From assembly GCA_026004035.1 (NCBI GenBank), contig BPII01000002.1, forward strand, positions 124,001 through 188,000: a stretch of 64,000 nt of DNA, given 5' to 3'. Each line of letters opens with the position of its first letter. Positions within the stretch are counted from its first letter, which is position 1. The position numbers and the translations under genes are program-made. Of the stretch, positions 5,710 through 33,793 are shown one piece after another. Source of the stretch: Candidatus Sericytochromatia bacterium. GTDB lineage: Bacteria; Cyanobacteriota; Sericytochromatia; UBA7694; JACMQJ01. The notes under the pieces are model-generated. The model saw nothing but the letters and a program-made list of their open reading frames with translations, had not been told where the DNA came from and made no database searches.

Positions 5710-5710
5710 T

Positions 5711-6679: not shown

Positions 6680-7153
6680 ATGTTAAGTCATATTGATGAT
6701 AACAATAATCCTACAATGGTTGATGTAGGATATAAAGAAATTACAAAAAGAACAGCAAAAGCAAAAGCTACGATTATTCTTAATCAAGAACTAATTAATA
6801 TGTTTGATGGTAATGATATAAAGAGTAAAAAAGGACCAGTTTTTCAAACAGCTATAATAGCAGGTATTATGGCAGTAAAAAAAACTTATGAATTAATACC
6901 AATGTGTCATCCTATAGGATTAGATAATTGTAGAATAAATGTTAATCTTGATAAAGAAAACATGATAGCAAATATAGAATGCTTTGTTTCTGTACATGCA
7001 AAGACAGGTATTGAAATGGAAGCTCTAACAGGAGTAAGTATAGCTGCATTAACAATATATGACATGTGCAAAGCTATATCACATGATTTAATAATAAAAG
7101 AAATAAAGCTAATTGAAAAAACTGGAGGAAAAAGTGATTTTAAAAGAGAATAA
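6680..7153 (+). CDS. moaC: Cyclic pyranopterin monophosphate synthase MoaC
   Basis: MoaC rearranges the MoaA product to cyclic pyranopterin monophosphate. The 157-residue protein has the family motifs MCHPIGLDNC and KTGIEMEALTGVSIAALT, and DMCKA near the C-terminus. Start and stop are tightly packed: ATG directly follows the moaA stop, and the next gene begins inside its last codons. A ribosome site for that downstream gene (GGAGG, 7124-7128) lies within the moaC coding sequence. Confidence 0.97.
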   Translation: MLSHIDDNNNPTMVDVGYKEITKRTAKAKATIILNQELINMFDGNDIKSKKGPVFQTAIIAGIMAVKKTYELIPMCHPIGLDNCRINVNLDKENMIANIECFVSVHAKTGIEMEALTGVSIAALTIYDMCKAISHDLIIKEIKLIEKTGGKSDFKRE

Positions 7154-8228
7154 TAACTATTTATTTAACAATTATGAAATATTTTTCTGTGGTTTTTCAG
7201 GTTCTGGTAAAACAACTTTAATAAGTAAATTGACAAAATATTTCTCAAAAATTTATTCTGTTGGATATATAAAACATGACGCACATAAATTTTCTATTGA
7301 TTATGAAAATAAAGATACTCATATTATTTATAATTCTGGTGCTAACAAAGTTTTTATAAATGATAATACTCATTTTGCATTTATTGAAAAAAGTAATTAT
7401 AATCAAAGTTTAATTAAAAGTATTTTTAATGATTGTGATTTTGTTTTTGTTGAAGGATATAAGTATTTAGATAATCCAAAAGTTTTAATTATTGATGAAA
7501 ATAAAAAAATATTAGAAGAATATAATAGTGGAAAAATAAATAATGTTTTATGTTTTGTAGGAGAAGATAGCTATTTAGATTTAGATAAACCTTATTTTAA
7601 TAGAAATGATATTACAAGTATAAGCAATTTTATACTAAATTATTTTAATAGTTTAAATAAAAAAGTTAATCTTTATGGTCTAGTTTTAGCTGGTGGTAAA
7701 AGCACTCGTATGGGTAGAGATAAAGCTGAATTGGAATACTATGGTAAGAAACAGGTAGAATATACTTGTGATTTACTATATAATTATTGTAATAAAGTGT
7801 TTATTTCAACTCGAGATAAAGTTTATTCATCAAGATATGAAAGTATATTTGATACTTTTTTAAATATAGGTCCAATAGGTGGTATATTATCAGCTCAAAC
7901 ATTAATCAATAATACAGCTTTTTTTGTTATAGCTTGTGATATGCCATATATAAATAGTGAAACAATAGAAAAATTAATAATGAATAGAGACTATTTTAAA
8001 TTTTCTACTTGTTATATAAATCAAGAAAATAATTTACCTGAACCATTATGTGCAATTTATGAGCCCAAAAGTAAATATGCTTTAATGAGTTTTATAGCTG
8101 AAGGTTTCTCGTGTCCTAGAAAATTTTTAATTAAATATAACTCTAAGAAAATTCTTCCAAATAATCCTATTGAAATGAGTAATATAAACTATATTGAAGA
8201 ATATAATGAAATAAAGGGTAGAATATGA
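7134..8228 (+). CDS. MobB-MobA fusion: molybdopterin-guanine dinucleotide synthesis
   Basis: A two-domain protein. Residues 1-160 are MobB-like, a GTP-binding adaptor with P-loop GFSGSGKTT. Residues 175-364 are MobA, the guanylyltransferase that makes the dinucleotide cofactor, with LAGGKSTRMGRDKAEL and later ACDMPY. The GTG start at 7134 is chosen because GGAGG sits 5 bases upstream; a TTG at 7113 would lack this. It overlaps moaC by 20 bases and the moaD ATG by 4 (ATGA). The MobB-first order implies one polypeptide handles both jobs, so the organism's molybdoenzymes probably use the guanine dinucleotide form (DMSO-reductase family, such as nitrate reductase). Confidence 0.93.
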   Translation: MILKENNNYLFNNYEIFFCGFSGSGKTTLISKLTKYFSKIYSVGYIKHDAHKFSIDYENKDTHIIYNSGANKVFINDNTHFAFIEKSNYNQSLIKSIFNDCDFVFVEGYKYLDNPKVLIIDENKKILEEYNSGKINNVLCFVGEDSYLDLDKPYFNRNDITSISNFILNYFNSLNKKVNLYGLVLAGGKSTRMGRDKAELEYYGKKQVEYTCDLLYNYCNKVFISTRDKVYSSRYESIFDTFLNIGPIGGILSAQTLINNTAFFVIACDMPYINSETIEKLIMNRDYFKFSTCYINQENNLPEPLCAIYEPKSKYALMSFIAEGFSCPRKFLIKYNSKKILPNNPIEMSNINYIEEYNEIKGRI

Positions 8229-12362: not shown

Positions 12363-12371
12363 AAAACAAAA

Positions 12372-12983
12372 ATGTCAATCAATATAATAGATTTAGGTTT
12401 AAAAGATTACAAAGAAACTTTAAATGTACAATATGACTTAATAGAAAAAAGAAAAAATAATCTTATAAACGATACTCTTATACTTGTAGAACATAACCAT
12501 GTTATAACTGCTGGAAGAAAAACAAATCAAAATAACATTATAGATAAGTCTTTACCTATTTTTTATGTTGAAAGGGGAGGCGATGTTACTTATCATGGGC
12601 CTGGTCAATTAGTTGGTTATCCTATAATAGATATAAGTAAAAGTAAGGATGTAAATTTATTTATAAGAAAAATAGAACTATTTATAATAAATGTATTAAG
12701 TAAATTTCAAATAGTTGCTAATACCAAGGAAAAACACACTGGTGTTTGGGTTGATGATAAAAAAATAGCATCAATAGGAATAGCTTTTAAGAATTGGATA
12801 AGTTACCATGGGTTTTCAATAAATGTAAATACAAATATGAGTTTTTTTTATAAAATAAATCCTTGCGGTTTAGAAGCTTCTGTTATGACATCAATGCAAT
12901 TAATTTTAAATAAAGAAATAAATATTGATGAAGTTAAAAAAGTAGTGTCTAAATTATTTACAAAATATTTTGATAAAATTTAA
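12372..12983 (+). CDS. lipB: Octanoyl-[ACP]:protein octanoyltransferase LipB
   Basis: LipB moves octanoate from acyl carrier protein to the lipoyl domains of 2-oxoacid dehydrogenases and the glycine cleavage H protein. The 203-residue protein has the conserved blocks LVEHNHVITAGRK, ERGGDVTYHGPGQLVGYPI, the lysine in DDKKIASIGI and the catalytic cysteine in NPCGLEAS. It lies 9 bases after the helicase gene. A second lipoyl-transfer enzyme (33806-34516) and a stub of a third gene (22428) are also in the window. Confidence 0.95.
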   Translation: MSINIIDLGLKDYKETLNVQYDLIEKRKNNLINDTLILVEHNHVITAGRKTNQNNIIDKSLPIFYVERGGDVTYHGPGQLVGYPIIDISKSKDVNLFIRKIELFIINVLSKFQIVANTKEKHTGVWVDDKKIASIGIAFKNWISYHGFSINVNTNMSFFYKINPCGLEASVMTSMQLILNKEINIDEVKKVVSKLFTKYFDKI

Positions 12984-12990
12984 CAATTTC

Positions 12991-12999
12991 TGATATACT
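12991..12999 (+). promoter_or_regulatory. Extended -10 promoter (TGATATACT)
   Basis: TGATATACT lies 31 bases before the ATG at 13031 and would drive the small lysine-rich gene and the phosphodiesterase and kinase genes behind it. The same motif and spacing recur before valS, eno, wecC and the biotin carrier gene. Confidence 0.55.
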
Positions 13000-13030
13000 T
13001 TTATTTGAATTATTTTTTATAGGTTAAATT

Positions 13031-13165
13031 ATGATAGATAAAAATAAATTAAAAGAAAAAAGAGAAAAAGAAAAAGAAGAATCTGTTAATTTATGGAACG
13101 CTTTTATAGAAGATAATAAAAATAAAGAAGAAGAAAATAAAAAAGAAAATAAAAAGGAAAAGTAA
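13031..13165 (+). CDS. Small highly charged protein, 44 residues
   Basis: A short frame of 44 codons starting ATG 31 bases after an extended -10 promoter. It has a charged start (MIDKNKLKEKREKEKEES), the centre VNLWNAFIEDN, and a lysine/glutamate-rich tail. It would be a single helix. The stop is 7 bases before the phosphodiesterase ATG. The tail composition could arise by chance in AT-rich DNA, but the promoter and the ordered centre support a real gene. No function is recognised. Confidence 0.55.
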   Translation: MIDKNKLKEKREKEKEESVNLWNAFIEDNKNKEEENKKENKKEK

Positions 13166-13172
13166 TTTGACT

Positions 13173-13655
13173 ATGAGTTTTAAAATACTTATAATAAGTG
13201 ATACTCATGGCTCTTTTAAAGAAATACCCTATGTTTATAATTTAAACGAGTATAGTAATATACTTTATTTAGGTGATGGTTTTGATGAAGCTTATTCTTT
13301 TGTTTCAAGAAAGAATAGTTTAGATAAATTTATTTATGTTTCTGGTAACTGTGATAATGCCCCTGAAGTTCCAAGGAAAAGATTTATAAATATAGATGGT
13401 ATAAAAATATTTATGACTCATGGTGATTTATATGATGTAAAAACTTCCTATGATAAAATAATAAAACATGGTTTTGATATAAAGGCTGATATTATTATGT
13501 TTGGTCATACTCACTATGCTGAAAACTTTCAAGTAGATAATTTAAGAGTTTTTAATCCTGGAAGCATTTTTCCTAGAAAAAGGGATTTTGCTTCAATTGG
13601 TTATTTAGAAATAAATAATGGTCAAATAATTGAATTAGAACATTTAAAGTTTTAA
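13173..13655 (+). CDS. YfcE/MJ0936-type metallophosphodiesterase
   Basis: A calcineurin-like phosphodiesterase of about 160 residues. The metal ligands are visible: SDTHGSF, LGDGFDE, SGNCDN, THGD and FGHTHYAE, followed by NPGS. Family members hydrolyse phosphodiesters in vitro; the natural substrate is usually unknown. The ATG at 13173 gives the family N-terminus MSFKILIISDTHG. A TTG two codons earlier has better spacing from AGGA (13155-13158) and is a possible alternative. Its stop overlaps the next ATG (TAATG). Confidence 0.85.
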   Translation: MSFKILIISDTHGSFKEIPYVYNLNEYSNILYLGDGFDEAYSFVSRKNSLDKFIYVSGNCDNAPEVPRKRFINIDGIKIFMTHGDLYDVKTSYDKIIKHGFDIKADIIMFGHTHYAENFQVDNLRVFNPGSIFPRKRDFASIGYLEINNGQIIELEHLKF

Positions 13656-14767
13656 TGAATGTTATAAAAGTTCCAGGTAAATTAGTCCTACTTGGAGAAT
13701 ATGCTGTATTAGAAAAAAATATTCCTGCTGTTTCATGTGCAATAAATAAATATATCTACTTACTTATAGAAGAGAATGAAAAAATAATTTTTACATCAAA
13801 AAGAATAGGAGTATCAAAAATAGAATTAAAATACAATAGTAATAAAATAATTTTAGAAAAAGAAAATAAAATACTTAATTTTGTAAAAAATTCTATAGAG
13901 ATAACGTTAAAATATTTAAAAGAAAACTCTTATAAAATAAAGTTTTTTAATATAAATATATTATCTGATTTAAATGATAATCAAGGAAATAAATATGGTT
14001 TTGGAAGTAGTTCCGCTGTTTGTGTTGCAACAGTAAGCTCAATACTTTTTTTACATGGTTATGATATAAAAGACTATAAGAATAGAGAAATAATTTTTAA
14101 ATTATCATCAATAGCACATTTCATTTCTCAAGGTTCAGGAAGTGGAATTGATATAGCTTCTTCTGTTTTTGGTGGATTATTTATATATAAAAGTTATAAT
14201 CAAGATTGGTTAAATGAAAAATTAAAAAAATTACAAAATATAAGTATTTTAGTAAATGATAAATGGGAATATTTTTATTATGAAAAAATAAATCTATTAA
14301 TTGATTTTTATATTTCTTTATTTTGGACAGGATATTCTGTAAATACATCTCACTTTATTGAGAAAATAAAAGATTTTAAAGAAAAAGATTTTAATAAAGA
14401 ATTTTATAACAAATTTATTAATTCAATGAATAAAATAGTTGAATCTTTTAAATATGGAATAAGAAATAATAAAAGGGAATTAATTAATAAATCAATAGAT
14501 ATTAATAGAAAATTACTTTTGGAGCTTTCAGAGAAAGCATGTTTAGATTTAGAAACTGACAAAATAAAAAAATTTATTCGATTATCAAATAAATTAGGCT
14601 ATTCTGCTAAATTTTCAGGTTCTGGTGGTGGTGATTGTGTTTTTGCAATAGTTTATGATAAAGAATCAGATAAAAAATTAAAAAAAATAATGAAATCTCT
14701 TGAACTTATACCTATAGATATTGAAATAGATTTTGAAGGTGTTATAAATATTAATTCTTTTAACTAA
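13655..14767 (+). CDS. GHMP kinase, phosphomevalonate-kinase-like
   Basis: A 370-residue GHMP-fold kinase. The start PGKLVLLGEYAVLE, the ATP loop GFGSSSAVCVAT, QGSGSGIDIASSVFGG, and the C-terminal FSGSGGGDCVFA fit the phosphomevalonate kinase (ERG8/MvaK2) branch better than mevalonate or galactokinases. Phosphomevalonate kinase makes mevalonate diphosphate for isoprenoids. No other mevalonate-pathway gene is in the window, so the pathway is not shown to be present, and another sugar or polyol phosphate could be the substrate. It overlaps the phosphodiesterase stop by one base. Confidence 0.65.
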   Translation: MNVIKVPGKLVLLGEYAVLEKNIPAVSCAINKYIYLLIEENEKIIFTSKRIGVSKIELKYNSNKIILEKENKILNFVKNSIEITLKYLKENSYKIKFFNINILSDLNDNQGNKYGFGSSSAVCVATVSSILFLHGYDIKDYKNREIIFKLSSIAHFISQGSGSGIDIASSVFGGLFIYKSYNQDWLNEKLKKLQNISILVNDKWEYFYYEKINLLIDFYISLFWTGYSVNTSHFIEKIKDFKEKDFNKEFYNKFINSMNKIVESFKYGIRNNKRELINKSIDINRKLLLELSEKACLDLETDKIKKFIRLSNKLGYSAKFSGSGGGDCVFAIVYDKESDKKLKKIMKSLELIPIDIEIDFEGVININSFN

Positions 14768-14862
14768 AATTTAACCTTAAAATAATATCTTATTAAGAAA
14801 GTTTTTAAAAATATTTTTTATATATAACACATAGGTTAGGTTATTAAAAAAAGGAGAAAAAA

Positions 14863-15060
14863 ATGAAAAATTTATTTTTAAATTTAGTTAAAGATGAAGA
14901 AGGTCAAGGCATGGTTGAATATGGTTTAATCATAGCTTTGATTGCAGTTGCTTTAATAGCTACATTGCAAACAACAAAAGGTAAAATAGCAGAAGTGTTT
15001 GGTAGAGTTGATGCAGGTTTAGATTCAGTTGGTAGTGGTGGTTCTAATCCAAATCCATAA
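14863..15060 (+). CDS. Flp/Fap-type pilin
   Basis: A 65-residue class IVb prepilin. After a short charged leader comes the processing motif G|QGMVEYGL with E at +5 and Y at +6, then a hydrophobic helix IIALIAVALIATL, and a glycine/serine-rich tail ending GGSNPNP. It matches Flp pilins of tad (tight adherence) systems, which polymerise into thin fibres. The ribosome site AAAGGAG is strong. No tad assembly genes flank it, so the machinery must be elsewhere. Confidence 0.92.
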   Translation: MKNLFLNLVKDEEGQGMVEYGLIIALIAVALIATLQTTKGKIAEVFGRVDAGLDSVGSGGSNPNP

Positions 15061-15100
15061 TTTAATTTTTTTTATGTTAAAAGTTTACTATAAAAATAAG

Positions 15101-15478
15101 TTAAAAATTTCTAAATAAATTCAAAATTTCATTTTTATTATGTATTTCTTCATAATATCGTGTTTTACTTATGTAAAAAACATTAGATTTTGTTAAAGTA
15201 ATAGATGTTGTAGAATATTTTTCATTTTTTATAAAAGAATCATAACCTAAAATAATAGGTGCTTTTGCTATAACTTTATTTCTTTTACTTTTTTCAATTA
15301 AAATTTCTCCATCTGATACAATAAATATTCCATAAGGATAATGTCCTTTGTAATATATAACTTGATTTTTATCTAAACTATGCAAAGTAGCATAATCTTT
15401 TAGAGAATTGCAAACGTCAAAAGAAATAATTTTAATCTCCTTACTAAAAATTCTACTTTTTAACACAACAATTTCCAA
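15101..15478 (-). CDS. Stand-alone cyclic-nucleotide-binding domain (CRP/FNR sensor-like)
   Basis: A 125-residue protein resembling the cNMP-binding beta roll: LDKNQVIYYKGHYPYGIFIVSDGEILIE, then PIILGYDSFI and STTSITLTKSNVFYIS. It lacks the long dimer helix and the helix-turn-helix of CRP/FNR proteins. The glycine/arginine phosphate cassette for cAMP is not evident. It may be a sensor that partners another protein, or a truncated regulator. A near-perfect FNR-type box lies 83 bases upstream of its start, so it may be controlled by a CRP/FNR-family protein. It converges with the Flp pilin gene. Confidence 0.6.
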   Translation of the reverse strand: MEIVVLKSRIFSKEIKIISFDVCNSLKDYATLHSLDKNQVIYYKGHYPYGIFIVSDGEILIEKSKRNKVIAKAPIILGYDSFIKNEKYSTTSITLTKSNVFYISKTRYYEEIHNKNEILNLFRNF

Positions 15479-15560
15479 ATTCTAAATAAAGATAAAGAAT
15501 TACTTAAAATATTTTATTATTAAAATCAAATTAATAAAATGACTAAAATTAAATACATAA

Positions 15561-15574
15561 TTGACTTTTATCAA
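15561..15574. promoter_or_regulatory. FNR/DNR-type operator, one mismatch
   Basis: TTGACTTTTATCAA differs from TTGAT-N4-ATCAA by one base. It lies in the divergent gap between the cNMP-domain gene (start 15478) and valS (start 15664), nearer the former. The other strong box is at 3117. Confidence 0.4.
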
Positions 15575-15620
15575 TAAAATTTGATATTTTTTTAAATTCA
15601 AAAAAAAATGCTTATTTCTG

Positions 15621-15629
15621 TGATATACT
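15621..15629 (+). promoter_or_regulatory. Extended -10 promoter of valS (TGATATACT)
   Basis: TGATATACT ends 34 bases before the valS ATG at 15664. The motif is identical to the one at 12991 and has nearly the same spacing. Confidence 0.55.
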
Positions 15630-15663
15630 TATAGGCTTGTATTAGTAGTATATTAAACTAGTT

Positions 15664-18095
15664 ATGAGTAAAAAATACGATCCAAAATTATCAGAACCAA
15701 AATGGGCAAGAATTTTGGGAAGAAAATAATGTAAATAAATTTGATTTTTCAAATTTAGAAAATATCTATTCAATAGATACTCCACCACCTACAATATCAG
15801 GTAAATTACATATAGGTCATATATTTTCATACACACAAGCAGAAGTAATAGCAAGATTTAAAAGAATGCAAGGTTTTAATGTTTTTTATCCATTTGGATT
15901 TGATGATAATGGATTACCAACAGAAAGGTTAGTTGAAAAGGAAATAGGTAAAAAAGCAACTGATTTACCTAGAAAAGAATTTATAGAAAAGTGTTTAGAA
16001 ATAACTCAAAAATATAGAGATGAATTTAAAAAATTATGGAAATCTATTGGTATAAGTGCTGATTGGTCCTTAGAATATTCTACTATTTCAAGTTATGTAA
16101 GAAAACAATCTCAAAAATCATTCTTAGAATTATATAAGAAAGGTTATATAGTAAGAAAAAATTCTCCTGCTTTGTGGGATACAGAGTTTCAAACATCAGT
16201 AGCTCAAGCTGAAATTGAAGATAAAGAAATGGAGTCATACTTTCATGACATAAAATTTACTTTAGAAGATGGCTCATGCTTTGATAATTTCAACAACTAG
16301 ACCTGAGCTATTACCTGCTTGTGTAGCTGTTTTTTGTAAATCCTAATGATGAAAGATATTTAAATTATATAGGTAAAAAAGTTAAAACTCCTTTAAATAT
16401 AGAAGTTGAAATATTATTGGCTGATGAAAAAGTTGATATAAATAAAGGTTCTGGTGCTGTAATGTGCTGTACCTATGGTGATGAAACAGATTTATACTGG
16501 GTTAAAACATATAATTTACCTGAAAAAATTATAATTACTCAAGAGATGGAAAAATTAAAGATAGTCCAATACAAGAAATGAATGGCGTTAAGAGTAAAGA
16601 AAGCAAGAGAAATTATAGTTGAAAAACTTAAAGAAATGGGTGTCTTTAGTAAATTCAAAACATATAATTGCACACTGTCGGTGTATATGAGAGAAGTGGA
16701 TTGCCTATTGAAATAATACCTGTTCCCCAGTGGTTTATAAAAACTCTTGAATTAAAAGATAAGTTTTTAGAATCTGCTGATAAAATAAATTGGTATCCTT
16801 CTTACATGAAACAAAGATATATAGATTGGGTTGAAAATTTAAAATGGGATTGGTGTATATCAAGACAGAGATTTTTTGGTGTGTCTATTCCTGTGTGGTA
16901 CTCCTAAAATAACAGGTGAGATAATTCTACCTGACGAAGAATCAATTACCTAGTTGATCCTATATTTGACAAGCCTAATAAATTACCTGAAGGTCACACT
17001 TATGATGATATAATACCAGATATAGACGTATTAGACACATGGGCAACATCTTCTATAACGCCTGAAATAAACGCTCATTGGGGTGAAGATAATCCTTTAG
17101 CTAGTAGATTAAGACCAATGACATTAAGACCTCAAGCACACGATATTATAAGAACATGGGCATTATATACAATAATAAAAAGTAAATTACATCATGATGA
17201 TATACCTTGGAAAAATATTATGATTTCAGGACATGTTTTATTTAAAAAAGGTGAAAAAATAAGTAAATCAAAAGGTCAAGCTATGCTTACCCCTGAAGAG
17301 TTAATAAATAAATATTCAGCTGATGCAGTAAGATTTTGGGCATGCAGAGCTTCTCTAGGTAAGGATGTTCAATTTGATGAAAATGAAATACAAAATGGTA
17401 AAAAATTGATAACAAAATTATATAATGCTTGTAATTTTGTATTCATGAATTTAAGCGATTATAATTATAGTACAATTGATGTTAATCTAGAACTTACCGA
17501 TAAGTGGATACTTTATAGAACTCAAGAAACTGTTGATAAAATGAATTCATATCTTGAAAAATTTGAATTTGGTATTGCTATGTCTGAATTTGAAAAATTT
17601 TTCTGGAGTGATTTTTGCGATAATTATTTAGAATTAGTAAAAGATAGGATTTATAAACCTGAAAAATATGGAAATGATAAAAAATTAGCAGGACAATATA
17701 CCCTTTATAAAACTATGAATACAATAATTAAATTATTAGCACCTTATTTACCACATATAACAGAAGAACTTTATCAAGAATATTTTAGAAAAAATGAAAA
17801 TACTATAAGTATTCATCTTACAAAATATCCAAGTAATGTATTTGAATATCAAGATGATAAAGATTATATTTATAAAGGTATTGATGTTTCTTTACAAATA
17901 GTAGAATTAGTAAGAAAATTTAAAACAGAAAACAAAATTTCTATGGGAAAAGAAGTTGAAAATATTATTATAAAATCTAATAAAGAACAAATAGAGTTTC
18001 TTAATAAAATTAAAGATGATATTATAGGTATTACTAGAGCAAAAAATATAAATTTCTTAGAAAACGATTTATTAGAAGTAAATGTTATCTTATAG
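15664..18095 (+). pseudogene. valS: Valyl-tRNA synthetase, interrupted by several frameshifts
   Basis: Valyl-tRNA synthetase charges tRNA-Val. All parts are readable in shifting frames: KLHIGH (HIGH at 15809-15820), YPFGFDDNGLPTER, the editing region (STTRPELLPACVAV), the WCISRQR block, KISKSKG (about 17255-17270) and the anticodon-binding and coiled end. From 17118 to the stop it is one clean frame of about 325 codons. Between 15700 and 16980 at least six indels break it: an extra G in GGG near 15707, shifts near 16275, an extra T in the run near 16335, and shifts near 16545, 16587, 16660 and 16905. Because the enzyme is normally essential and the pieces are otherwise well conserved, sequence error is more likely than decay. 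The 3' end overlaps the convergent flagellar gene by 11 bases. Confidence 0.9.
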
Positions 18096-22427: not shown

Positions 22428-22505
22428 TTATATTTTATTAAAGGATTTATAAGTAAATTCTATACTAAAATATTTTCTAAAATCTTTTATTATACAATTC
22501 TTTAT
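22428..22505 (-). pseudogene. 3' stub of a second LipM/LplA-like gene
   Basis: On the minus strand, this reads IKNCIIKDFRKYFSIEFTY followed by KSFNKI and a stop. It matches the end of the intact gene at 33806 (IKGFREYFNIEFTYKSFNEI). About 65 bases are nearly identical (22440-22506 against 33817-33883). It is the tail of a duplicated, otherwise deleted copy, left between the 3' end of the LysR-like gene at 22505 and the unknown gene. Confidence 0.8.
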
Positions 22506-23353
22506 TATTTATAATTACTACTTTCAAAAACTAATTTAATTTTATCTAACAATTTTTTTCTATTGCTTATTAAATAAACTTCAAGGTTTTCATTTTTATA
22601 TTCTGAATTTAAATCTTCATATTTACTGATATTTTTATCAATAAATAATGATTTACCTAAATTGTTCTTGACAAATTGCATTCTTAACAAATCATTATCA
22701 ATTGCAAACCTACTTTCATTAATTATATTATCATCAAACTTTTCCTTTATTTTTTCTTGAATAATTAGGTTTGCTTTAGGATATGATTTAAGTATTATTT
22801 CTTTATTTTCTTTAAAAACTTCTAATATTCTTATGTCAAAAATTTTAGTAATAAACAAATCATTTTTTTTTACATACTTTATCAATTTTTTTAGTTCTAC
22901 TTGATCCTCCATAAGAAGAATAGATATATCTGAATTTATCAAATTATTTGTTATAAAATCTTTGTTATAAAAATTAAAAATTAATTTGTAATTTTTAACT
23001 ATATCTATAAGTTTTGAGATTATATTATCATTAAAATAAAGTCTATTATCAATAAAAAATACAAATCTATTATTATAAAAAATAATATCTGTATATGCTA
23101 TTTCTTCACATATTTTTTTAGCTATTTCTGTTAAAATTATTTTATTTTTTTGAATACTTATAAGTTTTTCTTTTAAAATTTTCTCTAATCTTTTCAAAGA
23201 TACAATTATAGTATTTTTATCATAATTAACTGCTTCTTCTAAATCATAAATATCATTTATTTCATAGGCTTTTTTCAAAAAAAATAATGAGTTAGTTGGT
23301 ATTTTTGATAATAAATTATCTGAATGAATTAAAATTTTTTTAACTATTTTCAC
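22505..23353 (-). CDS. LysR-like transcriptional regulator (divergent)
   Basis: A 282-residue protein. Residues 10-75 look like a winged helix: LFFLKKAYEINDIYDLEEAV, then DKNTIIVSLKRLEKILKEKLI, as in LysR proteins, where the second helix is the recognition helix. The rest resembles a weak periplasmic-binding-like sensor with alternating beta strands and helices. The start is GTG at 23353, overlapping the upstream regulator's end by 14 bases, so the two are translationally coupled. It is much diverged; LysR is the nearest known family I can suggest. Likely target: the divergent surface-fibre locus at 24544. Confidence 0.5.
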   Translation of the reverse strand: MKIVKKILIHSDNLLSKIPTNSLFFLKKAYEINDIYDLEEAVNYDKNTIIVSLKRLEKILKEKLISIQKNKIILTEIAKKICEEIAYTDIIFYNNRFVFFIDNRLYFNDNIISKLIDIVKNYKLIFNFYNKDFITNNLINSDISILLMEDQVELKKLIKYVKKNDLFITKIFDIRILEVFKENKEIILKSYPKANLIIQEKIKEKFDDNIINESRFAIDNDLLRMQFVKNNLGKSLFIDKNISKYEDLNSEYKNENLEVYLISNRKKLLDKIKLVFESSNYK

Positions 23354-24149
23354 AGAATAAGCTTTTAATAACCTTTATAAATAAATTATGTGTGTCATTA
23401 ATAATTCTACTATTATAAGTAAGATACAAATTTGTATTAATATTGGTTTTTTCTAAAGTTAATAATTGTTCATCTTTATTACTAATATAATCAGGTAAAT
23501 AAGATGCTAGTTTATTAGTCTTTATACACTCTAAAATAAAATCCAGATTATTTGACTTGATTATTACATTTTTATTTAAAAAGAGTTCTGAAATAAATTT
23601 ATAGATATATTGAGCATAACCATAAAAATCATCTTTTTTTGAGTATAAATTCCATTTAAAACTTAAATAATCCAATTTAATATATTCTAAATAAAAATAT
23701 TCTTGGTTTATATATGAAACTACACCAAAATCTAACTCGTTTAAATAAACTAATTTCAAAATTTCATCTTCTTCAAATAAAGTAAATGATAATTTCAAAA
23801 ATGTATTTGTATATACGTATTTACATAAATTTAAAATATCTTTTTTTGATAAAAGTTCTAAATATCCAATATCTAGAAAATTTTTTTTAAAATAAAAAGT
23901 TTTTTTTAAAAGTATTAATAAATTATAAGAATAGTCAAAAAAAGTTTTTCCATCATCTGTTAAATAATAATTCCTTCTATCTATAAATAAATTTAACCTA
24001 AAATTTTTTTCTATATTGTTTAAAGCTTGTAAGAAAGATGTTCTACTAACTGAGAAATAATTACAAGTTTTATTAACATCCTTAAAAAGAACAAAAAATA
24101 AAAATATTCTAATAAAATCAATATTTTCTCTAAGAAGCTCTTTTTTCAT
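23340..24149 (-). CDS. LysR-like transcriptional regulator
   Basis: A 269-residue protein with an N-terminal winged helix: IRIFLFFVLFKDVNKTCNYF, then SVSRTSFLQALNNIEKNF and LFIDRRNYYLTDDGK. This is the LysR pattern (A..l..sq.a.S..i..LE..lg..LF.R......T..G). An effector-like domain follows. It shares gene order and overlap with the second regulator at 22505. ATG at 24149 is preferred over a TTG two codons upstream. It is divergent from the 24544 locus, with a 388-base gap carrying repeat B, a promoter and a palindrome. Confidence 0.65.
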   Translation of the reverse strand: MKKELLRENIDFIRIFLFFVLFKDVNKTCNYFSVSRTSFLQALNNIEKNFRLNLFIDRRNYYLTDDGKTFFDYSYNLLILLKKTFYFKKNFLDIGYLELLSKKDILNLCKYVYTNTFLKLSFTLFEEDEILKLVYLNELDFGVVSYINQEYFYLEYIKLDYLSFKWNLYSKKDDFYGYAQYIYKFISELFLNKNVIIKSNNLDFILECIKTNKLASYLPDYISNKDEQLLTLEKTNINTNLYLTYNSRIINDTHNLFIKVIKSLFCENS

Positions 24150-24297
24150 AATCAAAAATAAAAAAATAAACGAATAAACAAAGCTTAAAATAATAATCTT
24201 TGTTTTATTGAAAAAAGATATTTTTAAACGTGAAAGGGAAGTATAATATATCTTGATTTTAGTTACTAAACTATTTAATAAAATTTAATAATTTTTT

Positions 24298-24543: not shown

Positions 24544-27338
24544 ATGAAATGTAAAAATGAAAAGCTATTTGCTTTATTTCTGTCTGTATTATTATCTGCT
24601 TGTTCTGTTAATCAGAGCTTAAATCTTCCTAATGACAAAAAGCTATCTAATGTTAATAAATTAAATACTTTTAAAACAAAAGTTGAAGGTAATATTATGA
24701 ATTTCTCAGGAACATGGACGACAGATAATAATGGAGCTTTTTATTCAATAGATGAAAATGTTACTTTGAATGGATCTTGGGAGGTAAAAAATGAAAACCC
24801 AAATGATAATTTGAACACTGCTAATTCAAATTTTTATGAAAGTTCATCATCTGTTTTGTATCATAATACAAATCAAGTAAGTTATTTAGGAAATGGTTGG
24901 TTAAATACCACTTTTCCAAATACTAGTATGCAAACATATTATTCATATAATGCAGGTAATCCTGTATCTATACCATACTATAATACTTCATTAGCTCAGA
25001 TAAAGTTTTATAATTCTATTTATCCGCAAGGAACAGTTTATTCTACATCTATGTCAGGTTGGACATTTACAGGATCTTTAAACTCATCTATAACTACCTC
25101 TGAAATAGGTTCAAAAATAGAAATAATACCAAATCAAGAATTTACAAATTTCCATATAGTACACAGAAAAGGACCTAATAGAGGAAGCTTTAAAGTTTCT
25201 ATATATAGTAATTTAGATACCTTAGAAAAAGAATTTATATTGAATGGTTATAATACTACAAATTCTTTATCTAAACAAGAAATTTATGGTTTACCTAAAG
25301 GTATGCATAAAATTGTAATAGAAAATCTTGGTGGTACAAATGGAAATATAATGGATTTTGTAGATATTAAAATATATCCTTCTATAGTAGCTTCTGTAAA
25401 TGGTACAAATTTTGATTGGTATGCTTATGTTGGACCAAATTATGGTAAAGCTTATTTAAGTATAGATGGTCAGGGTTATGGTTATATAGATTTGTATGAT
25501 GCAAACTCTACTATCAAAAAAGTATATTCTATTGATACTCTAAGTAATCAAGAACATACTGTAACTATTGATTTAACAGGTTATAAAAGTACTAGTAGTA
25601 GTGGTTTCAGAGTTTCTTTTGCTACCATTGGTAATGAAAATTCTGTATCAGGTTCATTTGAAGGTAATAAAATTGCATTTAATTTCATAAAGGGCCCAGA
25701 TGCAGGAATACTTGATGTTTTTATAGACAATAATTTTGTTAAACAAATAAATTTATATTCTCCAACAAAAGAGTATTATAGTGATTTAATTACAGGACTT
25801 TCAAGCGGTAACCATACATTTAAAATTAGTTCAAAAAGAGAAAAAGATCTTCTTGCGAGAGGAAATAAGATTATGATAGATGGAATAAGTGAAGAATCTA
25901 AACTCGATTATTCTTTTAATGGAATTGGTATTAGATTTAAGAATAATTTACTTGACAATAGTGGAATGTTTTATATAGATCCAATAAATTATAGTTATGA
26001 TATATTTTTCTCCATTTAAAGTAGAAAATAATAATCAGTTTATATGTTTAAGTGAAAAAAATCAATATCATTCACTTAGATTTGTTATTCCTCTAGAGAA
26101 ATCTCCCGAGAGTAAAGGATATTTAACTAACTTTTCATCTATTGAACCTATAAAAGCTTTGTTAAAACAAAAAGCTATCTTTAAAGATGGTGAAAATTTA
26201 TACTATAGAGATCCAAAAGCAGAAAATGAAATTAAGCTAGTATCTGACCAGGTTTCCGAAGCTGACATTACACCAAATAATAATTTTATTTTTTATACTA
26301 AATATGATGATCATTTATACTTGTATAATACTACTAGTTCTAGCTTAGTTGATTTATCAGAAAGATATTCTTTACAAGAAGCTTATAGGATTTATGGAAT
26401 AGATGATAATTGGATATCATTTACAGCAACTAAAGATGGTTTAGAATATGATGTATATGCTTACTCATTAGCAGAAGATAAACTATTTAACTTATCTGGT
26501 AGTGCTACTAAACTATATGATGACTTATCTACTGGTATTAGTGGTCTTATTGGATCTAAAATTGCTTCTCCTTCATTTGTTTGGTTTAATTGGGAGGGTG
26601 GTTTAAGAAAACTTTATTATTCTAATTTAGATACTATAATTAATATTAATGATATTACGCATATACCACCTGATATTTTTCCAGCAATAATAAAACCATA
26701 TATATTTAAACTTTCTTATGCTGATCCAAAAATGGCTTTTACTACTCAAAAAGTAGCTTGGATTTCTAAAAATCCAGAGCAACCATACATTTTATATGTT
26801 GCAGGTCTAGATGGTAGTTATGTATCTATAATAAATGTACCTTATATATATTCACCTCCATCAGGTAGTGGCTTATATTATGTTAAGCAAGACGGTAGTC
26901 TTTATCTATTTAAAGATGGAATAAATGATATACTAATAGATAGAGATTTATCTCTTTATATTTCAGAATTAGCTAGTGATTCTTCCGGTAGAATAGTAGC
27001 TTATACAAAAGGCGGAAAACTTGTACTTCTGGGATGGTAATACTTCTACACAAATAACTAATTCAGGTCAAGTTATGAGTTTATCTATGGCACCTGATGG
27101 ATCGTATATAACTTATCAAGAAAATAATGAAGTTAAAGCTTATGAAATTGCTACTAATAGTACATACACTTTAAATACTAATTCTACTAATATTTTGGAT
27201 ATTGGTAATAACTTGTTTGATACAGGAGAATGTGTTTTTTATAAAAAAATTATACCAAAGGAGCGAGAAATTATACCAAGGGGATCAAGGGGATATAGGT
27301 ATGCCAGAAGGAACCATAATCCTAAATTTATTAAATAA
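24544..27338 (+). pseudogene. Large surface lipoprotein with jelly-roll-like and beta-propeller parts (frameshifted)
   Basis: Starts with a lipoprotein signal (LFALFLSVLLSACS, lipid cysteine about residue 20). The N-terminal half has three beta-sandwich-like repeats. Each has an opening such as SGSFEGNKIAFNFIKGPDAG, a middle of the type DVFIDN, and an end like GLSSGNHTFKI, resembling carbohydrate-binding jelly rolls. From about 26150 the pattern changes to short repeats of the DGENLYYRDPK / NNNFIFYTKYDDHLYLYN kind, as in TolB/WD40-like propellers. Two frameshifts split it: near 26005 (T run; deleting one T restores YDIFSPFKVENN) and near 27022 (one extra base; KLYFWDGN restored). The end is uncertain; another frame gives TIILNLLNK near 27338. 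First gene of the surface locus, probable adhesin; function not known. Confidence 0.7.
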
Positions 27339-27391
27339 GTAGTTATTTTTATATTTTATTATTTATAATTTTATTATAAGGAGGTTTTTTT

Positions 27392-28043
27392 ATGAAAAAG
27401 TTTTTACTTTCTGCTGTATCAGCTATGGTAATAGCTGGTATAAGCTACCAAGCAAATGCAGCTTACACTGATGCATACTTTGATGTAAATTGGACATTAG
27501 ACACTGGTTTTTAGAGTTGATATAATAGCTCAAACTACAGCAAATTCTATTAATAGTACTGTTGATACACAAAACACTGGAGTAAATATAGGAACCTTAG
27601 ATTTAGGAAATGTTGATGCTTTATGTTTTAATTCAGGAGATGCTTCAAGTTGTTATACTAATTCATCTGGAGCAGGTTCTACTTATGTATATACAGATGG
27701 TATTCAAATTACAGGAGTATCAGGAACAACTGATCCAATAACTATAGATGTATCAGCAACTGGTGGAAATAATACAACATTGTCATTTGGTGCTTCAAAT
27801 AGTATAAATTCATATTTAGGTGGTTCAGCTACTCATAGTGATGCAGTTACTCCTAATAATACAGGAGATTTTGCAATAAATTTTGATTTCGCTTTAAATG
27901 TATCACCAAATGATAATGCAGGTGCTTTCAGTGATACAGTTACACTAACATTTGATAATGGTTTAATAATTAATTCTATTATTCTTAATTTTAATTTAAA
28001 AAATTCTAAGTTACAATGTTTTCGTTTTGCATATTTGTTCTAG
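27392..28043 (+). pseudogene. Secreted pilin-like structural protein (frameshifted)
   Basis: MKKFLLSAVSAMVIAGISYQ opens a perfect signal peptide cleaved after ANA, then AYTDAYFDVNWTLDTGF. Here one extra T in TTTTT (27508-27512) breaks the frame; deleting it gives RVDIIAQTTANSINSTVDTQ and runs on to 28043. The mature protein is small, threonine/serine/asparagine-rich and beta-like, ending SDTVTLTFDN, as pilins of the spore-coat-U/archaic fimbrial kind do. It has a strong AGGAGG ribosome site. The end is uncertain: NGLIIN may be the true terminus, because the frame overlaps the next gene. Role: probable subunit of a fibre. Confidence 0.6.
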
Positions 28044-28788
28044 TATTTTTAAATACTTTTGTTGCCAGTTTATTCATTAACTATAGTTCCACAAAAAATT
28101 TAATATATCAGCAATTGATAATAATACAATTAAAAAAAAGTTATTTATAAGAAATGATTATAATTTTAAATGTAAATTTTTTATTAATAAACATGACTTA
28201 ATATTTAAAAATTCAAGAAAAGAATATGTTAATCCATCTAAATTTTCATTCATAAAAAATGTAGAAATATTGCCAAATGAATTTATATTAGAAGGAAAAC
28301 AAACAAAAAGAAATAGATATAATAATAAATACACCAGAAAATTTTAGTGGAAGTTATCAAGGTGCTTTTTCTATTACATCCATGCCTTTTATTGATAAAA
28401 AACCTAAAAATAACTTTTTGCAATTTAATGCAAAAAGGTAATGATACCTTTTTTATTTGAATTAGAAGGAACAACTAGTGTATCTGCAAGAATAAAAAAA
28501 GTAGAACTAAATAAAAAAGATTTTTTAAATATAGATTTTCAAACAATAGTTCAAAATAAAGGAGATTCAAATTTGGAAGGAATAGTGTTTATATCTATAT
28601 TAGATGAGAATTATAATTTTATAACAAAATTACAGTCTAAGAAAAAAACAATTTATCCTTATCAAGAATGTTCTTTTAATAATAGTATAAAATATTATTT
28701 TCCTAAAGGAAATTATCATGCTATAATTACATTTGTATACAAGGATAAAAGTGTCTCAATTGATAAACCATTTGAAATTAGTAAATAG
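28016..28788 (+). pseudogene. Periplasmic two-Ig-domain chaperone-like protein (frameshifted)
   Basis: A signal peptide (FCIFVLVFLNTFVA) is followed, after frame changes, by VYSLTIVPQK and NISAIDNNTIKKKLFIRNDY, an Ig-like domain. A conserved-looking Y-x-GAF segment (FSGSYQGAFSITSMPF) follows. A second Ig-like domain (28441-28788) includes GIVFISILDENYNFI and GNYHAIITFVYKDKSVSI. Frameshifts lie near 28062, 28095 (A run), about 28300 and 28436, so only the last third is one clean frame. Two tandem Ig domains between a pilin and an usher is the layout of fimbrial chaperones (or WxL-type DUF916 binders); the sequence match is weak. It would escort subunits in the periplasm. Confidence 0.45.
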
Positions 28789-31564
28789 TATAATTTTTAT
28801 ATTTTTTTTTATTTGTTTATTTTGCTTTGCAAGTGAAAATAGTAGTATATACATAGGTATAAACGAAAAAATAGAGATAAATACTGATGAATACATCAAA
28901 CATTTAGTAATTGAAGAAAATGGAAAAATTAGACATCAGATTATTGGAAATAAAATAGAAATTTATGGTGAAAAACAAGGTAATGTAATATTATATCTAT
29001 GGGATAAAAAAGGATTTACATCTTATTTAATAACCATAAATAAATCAATTTATAAAAAAAGACATTAATGCAAAAACTATCAGTAATAAAAAAAAAAATA
29101 AAAAACAAACAATAAAAGCTTTATTAAATCAAAAATTAATAAATAACCATTTTCAAAATAGTAATGTTTCTTTTTCTTAGTAATAATTTAAAAATTTCAT
29201 TTCCAAACAAGTTCATTAATGATGGTATTTTTGATATAAATTTTAATCTTCTTAACTTACTACCATTTACTACAAATATAAATTCATTTAATACTAATAC
29301 TGAATTCAACTTGTTTAATATAACTTATAAAGAAAGAATATTTAACTTTCAGCTATTTGATATATTGAAACCAAATGGTGCATCATTTTTGCAAGAGCAT
29401 TTTGTTAGGAACAATGGAGGTATAAAAGGTTTTGAAATTAATTATTTATTAGATGAAAAAACATCATTTAACATTCTAACAGGATTTTCAAGAGGTTTAT
29501 TTCAATTTATTAATCCTTTTAGAACAAATAATGATTTGCTTATTTCTACAAATTTAAATTATAAAATCAATAATAAAAATGATTTTTTATTATCTTTTAT
29601 TTATAAATCTCCAGATTACTTAAATAAAAATAGTATAGTATCTTTAAGCAGTGGTATAAGTTCTAATCTATTTGAAAATTTTTTTCTAAAAACAGAAGTT
29701 TTTACAAATTTTGATAAATTTGGATTTATGACAAATTTAAACTATAAATATTTTTTTGATTCTAATAAAAATGAAAGCATTGATATATTACTAAATAATT
29801 ATGTTTTTCAAGATAATTACTATAAATTTATAAATTCATTTAATAGAGTTAATAAAGCTTTAGCTTCTTTCAATATAAAAAATACTAAAGTAAATGTAAA
29901 TTTTTCATCAGTAAATAATAATTTTGCTAATAATAATAATTTTAAGATAACTTTAAAAAGTTATATAAATGAATTTTTTTTTCCTAATGTTTCTTTTAAT
30001 TTCTCTGAAATTTTAGATGGTAAAAGCTATATAGCAAGATTGGGATTTGGAAATAAAATTAATACATTTTTAGAACCAGAATTTAAGTTTTTTATTAATC
30101 AAACTTCAACTGGAATTTTGTATAACAATACATTTTCGTTAAATTTAATAGAAGATAAAAATTATTCTTTAAGGTTTATAAATAATAATCTAATAAATAC
30201 TTTTAATAATTTTAATTCAAATTTTTCATTAAGAGGTAATATGAACTTAGATAACTTAAAGTTTAACTTAGGATTATCATATTTAATCTCTAATTCAGGA
30301 ATAAATAATTATTTAACTAATGGTTTTGGTATTAATTTAAATTTTAACTATGCATTAAGTAATTATACTAGTATTCTTGGATCTATTAGAAGTAACTATT
30401 TTAATAATAATTTTCAAAGTAACTTTTCTATAAACTATATTTATAATTTTTCAGATTTTATATCATCCTTATTTAATTATAGCTTATCAGGATTAGTATA
30501 CTTAGATAACAATAAAAACAATTTTTTTTGATGAAGGAGATGAGGTTCTTAAAAATGGTGAAATATTATTTAATGATAATTATTATAAAATAGAAAATGG
30601 TAGATATTTTATAAATAATATAAAAGAAGGTATATATGAAATACAAATAAATGAAAATAAATTAAATAGTAGTTATAAAGCAGCTATAAAAAAAGCTCAA
30701 ATAGATGTACCTACAGAAAAAACTTTTGATTTTCCTATATTAAATGATAATTTTAAAAATGTAACTATTAATGTTTATGGAAATATTTCTAAAACAAAAA
30801 CCTTAAGAAAAGTTAAAGTCTATGCTAATGGTGAAGAAAAAATTACCAATCCTTCAGGAAGTGCAGATTTTTATCTAGAAAAAAATAAAGAATATAAAAT
30901 TTCATTAGATTATAATACAATACCAAGTGGATATGTATTTCCAGAAACTTACAAAACAATTTTTCTAGATGATGATAAAAGTGTAGATTTTATTTCATAT
31001 CCATTAATTTCTGTAAAAATCAACTTTTTATATAATAATAAAAATAAAATTAATTACATTAAGAATTTAAACGTAAAATGCACTTATATAGATTACGAAG
31101 ACAATAAAAAATACTATAATTTAAAAACTAATAATGAAGGTTATATATTGATAACAGATATAAAAACAGCAGGTACTCTAAAAGTAGAATATGAAAATAT
31201 GGAAGAACCTTTACTAATACAAATTCAAGACAAGCCAGGTAACATCGAATTAGATGTGAAATTATCAGAAATTATTTTTAATACAAATGAAAGTAATAGT
31301 AATAAAAGTAATAATATAAAAAAAATTAATAATTTAGAAAATTATAAAAGCTTTTCTAAAAATAATTCTAGTAATATAAATAAAACTGAAAAAAACAAGT
31401 TTATAAAACACAAAGTTACTAAAAATGAAACTTATTTTTCTATATATAGAAAATACTATGGAAATAATTTTAAATTTATAAAAAAATTTTTGAAATACTT
31501 TAAAAATAAAAAATTAAAAGCTAATAGTATTATTCTAGTTCCAAGCAAGGATTTACTAAAATGA
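28772..31564 (+). pseudogene. Outer-membrane usher-like barrel with CpaC-like N-terminus, SdrD-like domains and LysM (frameshifted)
   Basis: Starts at a TTG (28772) with a signal-like helix (IIFIFFFICLFCFA). The first 80 mature residues, IGINEKIEINTDEY...GEKQGNVILYLWDKKG, match the pilus/secretin N-terminal domain of CpaC. A long asparagine-rich beta barrel follows (29164-30531). At its end, SGLVYLDNNKNNFF, one extra T in a T8 run breaks the frame; deleting it continues FDEGDEVLKNG...KEGIYEIQI, an SdrD-B-like domain seen in ushers and surface proteins. A further Ig-like part follows, then a C-terminal LysM (VTKNETYFSIYRKYYG...SIILVP). A second frameshift is near 29060-29165. Role: probably exports and assembles the fibre. 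Not a standard FimD: no PapC-type plug signature was recognised. Confidence 0.5.
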
Positions 31565-33793
31565 AAAACATTAAAATTATTAGTATTACCTTATTTGTTT
31601 ATTTTTTTAATCTCATGTTCAGCTCCTAATAATCTAAATAAGGGAGTAAATACTAAAATATCTTCTAATCAAAATAAATCTGACAAATATCAAAATAGTT
31701 TTCCAGAAAAATTTGAAATGAATACAAAAAATCTTACTTTTAAAATAAATGAAGATAAACTAATTGATTTTAAACTTTATGATTCCAATGATAAACAATT
31801 AAATGATTTAGAGTTTATTTCTGAAAATCAAAATATATTACAAAATATAGGTTCAAATAAGTTTAAAGGTATATCAGAAGGTTTAACATATATTATAGTT
31901 TTTTCAAAAAAATATAAAGAAAAAACTTTTATAATACCAGTTTATGTTACTAAAAAAATTGAAAGAAATATTAATTTTATAAGAATAAATCCTCCAGTTT
32001 TAATAATAAAAAAAGGAGATAATAAAAAATTTTATTCTGAAATTTATTTTAGTGATATATCAACACCAGTAAAAGATTATAACAATTGGACAGTGGAAAG
32101 TAAAAATGTTGGTGATATAAATTCAGAAGGCAACTTTTTAGCTATTAATAAAGGCGAAACTTCAGTGTTTTCATTTTTTAATAATGATACTATTTATAAA
32201 AGCCAATCTAAAGTATTTGTAAAAGAATCAGAAAAAGATTTAATTGCTTTAGAAGATATATACATAGATCAAATAACTTCTTCCTATAAAGAAATAATAG
32301 GTAATGTTGGTTTCTCAGATAAAATAGAATCAAAAATAAAGTTTAACTTTGGAAGAATATCTCATTTTCCATATTTTTTATCAGGTAATGAATCAATAGT
32401 TAAAGTTTATCAAGATGGTAGTTTTGAACTTATCGGTGAAGGAGAAACATTTATAAAAATAACAAACTTATATGATTATTCAAAACCTTATTTTATACCA
32501 GTAAAATCAATTAAGTTTGATTCTAAAATAAAATGTATAAATACTGAAAAAAAAATAATAAATCTAAAGTTAAATAGTGATTATGAAATAAGCTTGGATA
32601 ATAATTATGATTATGAAATAGAAAATAATCAAATTTGTAAGCTAATTAATAATAAATTAACTGGAATGAAAACTGGTACTACAAAGTTAATTTTAAAAGA
32701 TAAAAGTAATAGTTCTTTAAAATCATATATACCAATTAATGTTTTCTCAGATAATGATCCAAATACATTTTTAAACAAATTAGATGTCTATGGTAAATAT
32801 AATTCATATAACGTAAAATTAAACTGGGAAAAAATACCTGGAAACTATGAATATCAAGTTTTTAGAAATAATACTTTATTATATAAAACAAAAGAAAATT
32901 ACTTTGAAGATAAAAATTTAAATGGTAATATGTTTGTTTATAAAATAAAAGTATGTAATGACAAAGTATGTAATGAATCAAATTCAAGAACAGCTAAAAG
33001 ACCTGCTCCTGAATCTCCTAGAATAATAAATGCTTATTCAAAATATATAAATGAAAATTTATTAAATTATATAGAATGGGAAAATTTAAATGATTCTAAC
33101 ATAACTTATCAAGTATATAGAGATAATAAATTAATAGCTAAAGTAAATACAAATTCGTTTCAAGATACTTTCAAGGTTAATACAGATAAATCTACATATA
33201 AATATAATATAAAGTCCTGTATAGATAATATTTGTTCTGAAGAAGAAAAAAGCTATTTTTTAAATATACCTTCACCTGAAAATACTGAATTTATTAGTGT
33301 TAAAAAAGAAGATAATAAGTATATTTTAAAATGGAAAGTTCCTTTAAATAATATGCCTTCAACTTACTATAAACTTTATAAAGATGAAGTTTTAATATAT
33401 TCAGGAATTCAAAACTCATTTGAATATTATTATGACAAAAAAGGTTATTTTACATACAAGTTACTATCATGTAATCATTTTTCATGTTCATCTGGTACAA
33501 TCTATAAATTTAGTAGTAACAATTTGCCTTTAGAAACAGAAATTTATCAACCTAAAGTAGTGAGAGTTAATAATAATAGCTATAATATTTCTTTATCTTG
33601 GAAGGATGTTTTATCAAAAAGTAATGATACGAATGAATATTATAAATTATATAAAAACGATACTTTGATTTACCAAGGCAAGCTAAATATATTTGTTGAA
33701 GATACTAATACTTTAGAGAATTACTATTATGTTGAAACTTGTAATATTTTTGGTTGTAGTAAATCTAATGTCGTAAAAAGTTCTTTATTATAA
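31561..33793 (+). CDS. Surface lipoprotein with Ig-like and four fibronectin-III repeats
   Basis: About 740 residues. The ATG at 31561 overlaps the usher stop; deleting one A of AAAAA after it gives MKTLKLLVLPYLFIFLISCS, a lipoprotein signal with lipid cysteine in ISCSAP. As written, translation could begin only at the TTG at 31595. Ig/Big2-like segments follow (about 40-390), then four fibronectin-III-like repeats. Each repeat ends in a C-x4-C pair: CNDKVC, CIDNIC, CNHFSC, CNIFGC. The repeats open with the pattern YQVFRNN..LYK/YKLYKDE. It lies at the end of the locus and would sit on the outer surface as an adhesin or fibre anchor. It ends 12 bases before the convergent gene at 33806. Confidence 0.75.

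Follow-up and report, generated by a model that had tools for sequence, protein, structure and literature searches.

A run of genes in the genome of an uncultured member of the Sericytochromatia, non-photosynthetic relatives of the cyanobacteria, probably encodes a divergent chaperone-usher-like system that would put a fibre on the cell surface. The locus occupies positions 24544-33793 of a 64,000-nucleotide stretch with a G+C content of 23% (the window; G000:C2:124001-188000, G000 being the host genome), from an assembly of 2.64 Mb in 46 contigs that is 75% complete. An earlier note, made from the sequence of the window, had put forward the idea of such a system, and it is supported by the recurrence of the gene set in other genomes, by a predicted PapD/WxLIP-type fold of the chaperone and by a barrel protein that is not a secretin.

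Recurrence of the gene set

The homology work was based on one-frame pieces of the window proteins and on intact relatives. Searches with the barrel protein's tail from the window bring up a second copy in the host genome itself (contig C6, E 2.8e-16) and a copy in G001, a genome of the same family (E 2.9e-14); the gene set thus recurs elsewhere, which the earlier note had named as a check. In C6, a pilin-like gene (211 residues) is followed by a chaperone gene (255 residues) and an usher-like gene broken at least once. The order in G001 is a pilin-like gene cut by the contig end, a chaperone (261 residues), a whole usher-like protein (891 residues), a 154-residue lipoprotein and then an NHL-repeat protein, which has an Fn3 hint and runs off the contig. 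Genome G005 holds a cut chaperone and a whole usher-like protein of 842 residues, with a pilin-like gene after it.

Among 386 genomes of the phylum, drawn from a larger group, the chaperone profile (E of 1e-4 or lower) matched 43, in which it hit 45 places. Kinship fits a position of the host genome in the Cyanobacteriota outside the cyanobacteria and Vampirovibrionia, and suggests that f9 is a Gastranaerophilaceae-like family and f14 a Nostocaceae-like one, f25 being a further family of Vampirovibrionia type. Examination covered 43 of the 45 places, the window itself and G132:C70 being left out. Under a strict rule for clustering (a same-strand open reading frame (ORF) of at least 500 residues within six genes of the chaperone), an usher-like gene accompanies the chaperone in 39 of these 43 loci. 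The exceptions are L071, L075, L082 and L094; an usher-like match lies about 4 kb upstream in L082, and the genomes of L071 and L094 have such matches on another contig or far away. Pilin-like genes were observed in the printed loci, without a count.

The usher-like proteins are related among themselves: in an all-against-all BLAST of 37 of the 39 (the split ones of L060 and L018 were left out), each matched at least nine others at 1e-3, and none of the 37 was matched by E. coli EcpC or FimD. A profile of nine usher-like proteins, built from two groups only and with part of its matches covering the tail alone, hit 59 of the 386 genomes at 1e-12. The classical usher family PF00577 occurs in 18 of the 386 and overlaps with the 43 chaperone genomes only in G031 and G132, at other places or contigs. 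A scan of genome contigs confirmed the G001 contig only (one of 22 stretches).

A weaker chaperone match at G000:C2:9220-9567 (E 0.002), on the antisense strand of an ftsH-like gene, was rejected as evidence. Another, at G016:C87 (E 0.0026), is too weak for the E 1e-4 count; it lies beside three genes that we take to be DUF4402-like and has the look of a usual PapD-type locus.

Architecture of the window locus

The ORF calls agree with the earlier description of a gene run in one direction:

24544-26019, plus strand: lipoprotein of 491 residues, accessory, jelly-roll hint near the C-terminus (ORF; CE2_N below cut-off)
25997-27338, plus strand: accessory; putative propeller-like part of the first lipoprotein, carried on in two more frames (ORFs)
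27392-28043, plus strand: pilin-like secreted subunit, one frame change (ribosome-binding site, signal peptide)
28016-28788, plus strand: periplasmic chaperone with two immunoglobulin (Ig) domains, several frame changes (profile match, hhalign)
28772-31564, plus strand: usher-like barrel protein with secretin-like N-end, barrel and transthyretin-like tail, frame changes, presumed start codon (both ends match relatives)
31595-33793, plus strand: intact lipoprotein and possible adhesin, with about four Fn3-like repeats and a hint of Big_2 (ORF; family matches)
22505-24155, minus strand: two divergent genes with weak LysR-type helix-turn-helix hints (HTH_1), at most candidate members of the locus

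The frameshifts suspected earlier are real features of the assembled sequence, the first lipoprotein with its propeller-like part, the pilin, the chaperone and the usher-like gene each being spread over at least two frames. Assembly errors likely lie behind them, because the same splitting affects an aminoacyl-tRNA synthetase in the window (15866-18095; profile positions 58-186 in one ORF and 336-414 in the next) and, at another place on the contig, an AMP-binding enzyme; a peroxiredoxin is cut short. The splitting of these two enzymes, whose genes are expected to be whole, together with the intact state of the 732-residue lipoprotein of the locus, also makes it rather doubtful that the window holds a decaying locus and C6 the working one. 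Decay would be compatible with a chaperone-usher-like system, and it would fit the splitting of pilin, chaperone and usher-like gene in the window next to the whole pilin and chaperone frames of C6, although the usher-like gene of C6 is itself broken. A frame-change scan put nine of 35 changes inside the locus at a lenient penalty, three of 11 at a middle one and none at a strict one, most of those outside falling at ordinary gene junctions; long homopolymers stand at some of the breaks only. Overlapping molybdopterin genes, considered as further breaks, proved whole and separate and were rejected.

The pilin-like subunit

The small secreted pilin-like protein of the earlier note is borne out by the sequence, in which the gene has a ribosome-binding site and a signal peptide. 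Its C-terminal Gly-x-Phe strand resembles, by eye, that of other pilin-like proteins, many of which have, also by eye, a C-terminal strand motif G-x-[YFK], with G-x-[YF] running on into alternating residues. Against three Sericytochromatia pilin-like proteins, hhalign gave a weak link (probability 24.8 over 83 columns). In the pilin-like proteins scanned, no family exceeded its cut-off, and neither an SCPU match nor a WxL domain was reported; the pilin profiles showed no link to pilins of SCPU loci, EcpA or FimA, and the sole other profile link is the one between the two pilin types of Gastranaerophilaceae-like genomes. A putative subunit role is suggested by the protein's place in the locus, its size, its signal peptide and its closing strand, though no test by family or profile bears it out.

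In three loci of f25 (L061, L062, L066), the usher-like gene comes first and three tandem pilin-like genes stand between it and the chaperone; all seven ends seen of these tandem proteins close in YNLVSP or YSLVSP.

The usher-like barrel protein

At either end, the barrel protein of the window has matches in intact relatives (N-end: E 1.7e-7, hhalign probability 89.5; C-end: E 2.2e-24, probability 96.8). Searches with its barrel piece and with the G001 barrel protein, in each of which about 8000 candidates sharing most words were scored, returned only the queries themselves. PF00577 is absent from the host genome, from all 18 genomes of the class and from the 19 usher-like proteins scanned with Pfam (18 whole, one piece), and no NCBIfam model exceeded its cut-off, in line with the earlier statement that usher and chaperone are unlike the standard types.

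A CpaC-type N-terminus, as read by the earlier note, was found in the G005 relative, where PF13629 matches the N-end alone with E 1.4e-6 and 28.3 bits and the whole protein with 23.4 against a cut-off of 23. The N-ends of the window and G001 proteins give no PF13629 even at E 10; they join that of G005 through the family profile, which in addition picks up true secretins in G012 and G016 through their PF13629 domain alone (E 1.4e-5 and 0.006). Judging from these matches, the barrel-like protein likely begins with a secretin-type domain. That the whole protein is a secretin, the case in which the earlier note would have given up its idea, was rejected: PF00263 is absent from all 19 usher-like proteins, whereas the CpaC-type proteins of G012 and G016 have it together with PF13629. 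Five N-ends (window, G001, G005, L057, L069) gave no Pfam match to the usher N-terminal domain, presumably the one named PapC_N. The N-domain seems to differ between branches, because usher-like proteins of f25 carry Cu_amine_oxidN1 (over cut-off in L061 1740-4484 and L066 1816-4482, just below in L079 2368-5388) where the Sericytochromatia form has the secretin-like domain. Some usher-like proteins of cyanobacteria have long N-terminal extensions ahead of the shared part, of about 530 residues in L064 (8767-12912), about 310 in L067 (3868-7314) and about 200 in L072 (5114-8272) and L093 (8988-12110).

The middle of the G001 protein is modelled with 21 predicted strands between residues 228 and 597, at low confidence (mean predicted local distance difference test score, pLDDT, 57), and its tail (residues 610-870) is confidently folded in the same predicted model. 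The SdrD-type tail of the earlier note exceeds the cut-off in G001, the C6 copy and G005, and is not reported in the window piece itself; SdrD_B, CarboxypepD_reg or CarbopepD_reg_2 matches the tail at E ≤0.01 in 19 of the 19 proteins scanned. A LysM part, also proposed, gave no match even at E 10 and is not supported.

Profile-profile comparison with cyanobacterial PF00577 ushers linked the f9 proteins over 755 columns (probability 96.7), one cyanobacterial group over 503 columns (96.3) and a second over 478 (94.6); as controls, FimD scored 97.5 with the same ushers and a porin at most 0.8 with any group. The Sericytochromatia profile aligns in its tail with f9 (94.7) and f25 (96.5). Foldseek with the G001 barrel model listed Gram-positive surface proteins first, as tail matches, then FimD from 1.1e-9, PapC from 7.2e-8 and TonB receptors from 1.1e-3.

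Several results weigh against a chaperone-usher function. The profiles of Sericytochromatia (14.3), f25 (37.4) and f41 (2.1) do not align with PF00577 ushers, so that half of the six groups, among them that of the window, are not convincingly linked; all usher and receptor matches of the G001 barrel model in Foldseek have low template modelling (TM) scores; VIA could not separate usher from receptor, giving receptors 17.2 over the barrel only (root-mean-square deviation, rmsd, 7.6) and FimD 16.8 over residues 211 to 871 (rmsd 25.9); and the pilin-like subunit is the weakest part of the reading. The three unlinked groups and the low TM-scores are the reason why confidence in it is reduced. E. 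coli EcpC fails to align even with FimD (probability 0.2), so that misses with single sequences carry little weight. With PF00577 missing, the profile links partial, the TM-scores low and the VIA comparison tied, the barrel protein is usher-like, and not an usher by family.

With usher and receptor tied in VIA, one may also think of a different kind of large outer-membrane channel, similar to a receptor or an exporter, by which the pilin-like protein would be secreted or anchored as a monomer, with the chaperone doing no more than protecting it. This is unlikely: Pfam reported no receptor plug domain in the 19 usher-like proteins, the best usher in Foldseek stands well ahead of the best receptor, the three groups that align with PF00577 ushers do so over barrel and tail and have the same partners, and a PapD-type chaperone gene adjoins in 39 of the 43 loci.

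The chaperone

The window chaperone is homologous to intact relatives (profile match E 7e-25), and its pieces align with the intact family in hhalign at probabilities of 98.6 for the C half and 82.1 for the N half, against at most 0.5 for an unrelated control. Two Ig domains, as the earlier note had claimed, are present in the predicted model of the G001 relative, whose fold is predicted to be of PapD/WxLIP type, so that the PapD-like two-Ig chaperone of the chaperone-usher pathway has its counterpart here. Foldseek places WxLIP first for this model, VIA ties it for first place with PapD-type chaperones within 1 Z unit, and the G001 protein passes the PF06030 cut-off (28.3 against 27.3). When the chaperone profile was run against the sequences of solved structures, the only matches were two ribosomal chains (E 0.53). 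Five further relatives, 40 to 44% identical, were found in a set of 5.8 billion proteins.

A WxLIP-like role, in which the two-Ig protein would stay with a surface domain for good, keeping it stable and anchored, instead of being released as the fibre grows, would suit these WxLIP and PF06030 matches, but is very improbable given that the protein ends at the last Ig strand with no C-terminal membrane helix, that the pilin-like proteins scanned show no WxL domain, that an usher-like gene is its neighbour in 39 of 43 loci and that PapD-type chaperones score almost equally.

Seven of eight Sericytochromatia-type chaperones have alanine and one (G005) threonine at the Arg89 position, which was located through an hhalign alignment to EcpB of very low probability (0.4) and the DGEYR motif of the cyanobacterial branch, in whose members EYR is kept. 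In a chaperone tree of 34 rows, midpoint-rooted and with a long-branch warning, the Sericytochromatia-type chaperones, seven rows of which five are metagenome proteins, form one clade with support 100/100, beside the f9 rows with support that is not firm (85/81). The tree is compatible with old descent within the phylum.

Accessory and neighbouring genes

As accessory components, the Fn3-like and propeller-like lipoproteins may act as an adhesin or an anchor; they lie outside the minimal unit, because the C6 copy has none beside it. For the first lipoprotein, the jelly-roll of the earlier note has some backing from CE2_N (E 5.8e-6; 26.8 bits, just below the cut-off of 27.9), and the propeller was seen by eye, with no family over cut-off. 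The Fn3-like repeats in 31595-33793 hold up, RGI_lyase and ChitinaseA_N exceeding their cut-offs in three and four stretches, respectively, and Big_2 staying below. Control by divergent LysR-like genes is not supported, the HTH_1 hints being weak (E 0.075 and 0.26).

The C6 copy (L018 7596-11451) is flanked on one side by a murA-like gene and on the other by a gene (12306-15800) that encodes a very large, repeat-bearing protein with a kinase-like end; the two neighbours were named by eye. Elsewhere in the window, a molybdopterin cluster (4501-8228) comprises MoeA, MoaA, MoaC and a fused MobB-MobA-like protein, and adjoins an outer-membrane protein with an Alginate_exp domain (3216-4493, E 5.3e-27). 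In six of the eight printed loci of f9 and f40, two small proteins that look secreted (of about 160-185 and about 230-265 residues) are encoded as a pair in divergent orientation to the operon:

L058, 10387-11618: divergent small-protein pair
L059, 10530-11728: divergent small-protein pair
L060, 5595-6892: divergent small-protein pair
L063, 5676-6877: divergent small-protein pair
L065, 1915-3191: divergent small-protein pair
L069, 10465-11683: divergent small-protein pair

Relation to known systems

A bioRxiv preprint reportedly deals with a chaperone-usher system of Synechocystis. The cyanobacterial set CccS/CccP/UshA of that organism is described in passages of PMC4390875 and PMC6755745 as an SCPU pilin, a PapD chaperone and a PF00577 usher, and a passage of the latter has the ushA mutant still flocculating. 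The loci described here share phylum and roles with this set, and differ from it in usher and pilin. Chaperones of PF00577 loci are related to the present ones by profile (88.4 directly, 97.1 through cyanobacterial members), as are the usher-like proteins of three of six groups to PF00577 ushers; on the other hand, the loci are without PF00577, their scanned pilin-like proteins without an SCPU match, and the Sericytochromatia form has a secretin-like N-domain.

In non-classical chaperones (archaic Csu, alternative ECP), a conserved Arg89 binds the subunit C-terminus, as a section of PMC4654587 states, in contrast to the Ala/Thr at that position here, subject to the very low probability of the alignment; in sequence, the usher-like proteins could not be linked to E. 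coli EcpC or FimD either. The Gram-positive WxLIP protein (DUF916-DUF3324), for which part of PMC10599100 describes a hairpin strand predicted to complete the WxL sandwich, is the first structural match of the chaperone and shares PF06030 with one member. The diderm setting, the outer-membrane barrel gene, the missing membrane helix and the lack of a reported WxL domain set the present loci apart from WxLIP/WxL. Tad/CpaC secretins have in common with the usher-like protein the N-terminal PF13629 domain (G005), which is followed here by a predicted barrel and an SdrD-type tail, and not by PF00263.

Proposed assembly and meaning

According to the chaperone-usher reading, the pilin-like subunit, whose signal peptide is seen, would enter the periplasm by the Sec route, where the chaperone would lend it its own G1 strand, which has a conserved stretch ending L-Q-E-T-K-G-T, and so keep it soluble. 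The complex would then be passed to the barrel protein, the secretin-like N-domain serving for docking as the usher N-domain does elsewhere, and the SdrD/transthyretin-like tail may stand in for the usher C-terminal domains. Strand exchange would link the subunits into a chain, and the barrel would be their way out.

A bolder extension, possible but doubtful, is that Sericytochromatia, gut-type Vampirovibrionia and filamentous cyanobacteria retain an old separate chaperone-usher lineage of the Cyanobacteriota, with a chaperone between PapD and WxLIP and a docking domain swapped per branch, the Sericytochromatia usher having taken that of a secretin. If true, two outer-membrane export machines would be combined in one hybrid that receives its subunits in a novel manner.

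PF00577 is the usual means of recognising chaperone-usher fibres. NCBIfam matched none of ten proteins of relatives at 0.01, and no title or abstract found in the open-access PubMed Central literature describes such loci. Because PF00577 and NCBIfam miss them, the chaperone-usher pathway may be under-counted in this phylum, including its gut bacteria and the non-photosynthetic relatives of cyanobacteria. From the WxLIP match comes a concrete lead as to whether the strand-donating chaperones of monoderms and diderms share an origin, and a secretin-like N-domain in usher position makes the function required of an usher N-domain testable.

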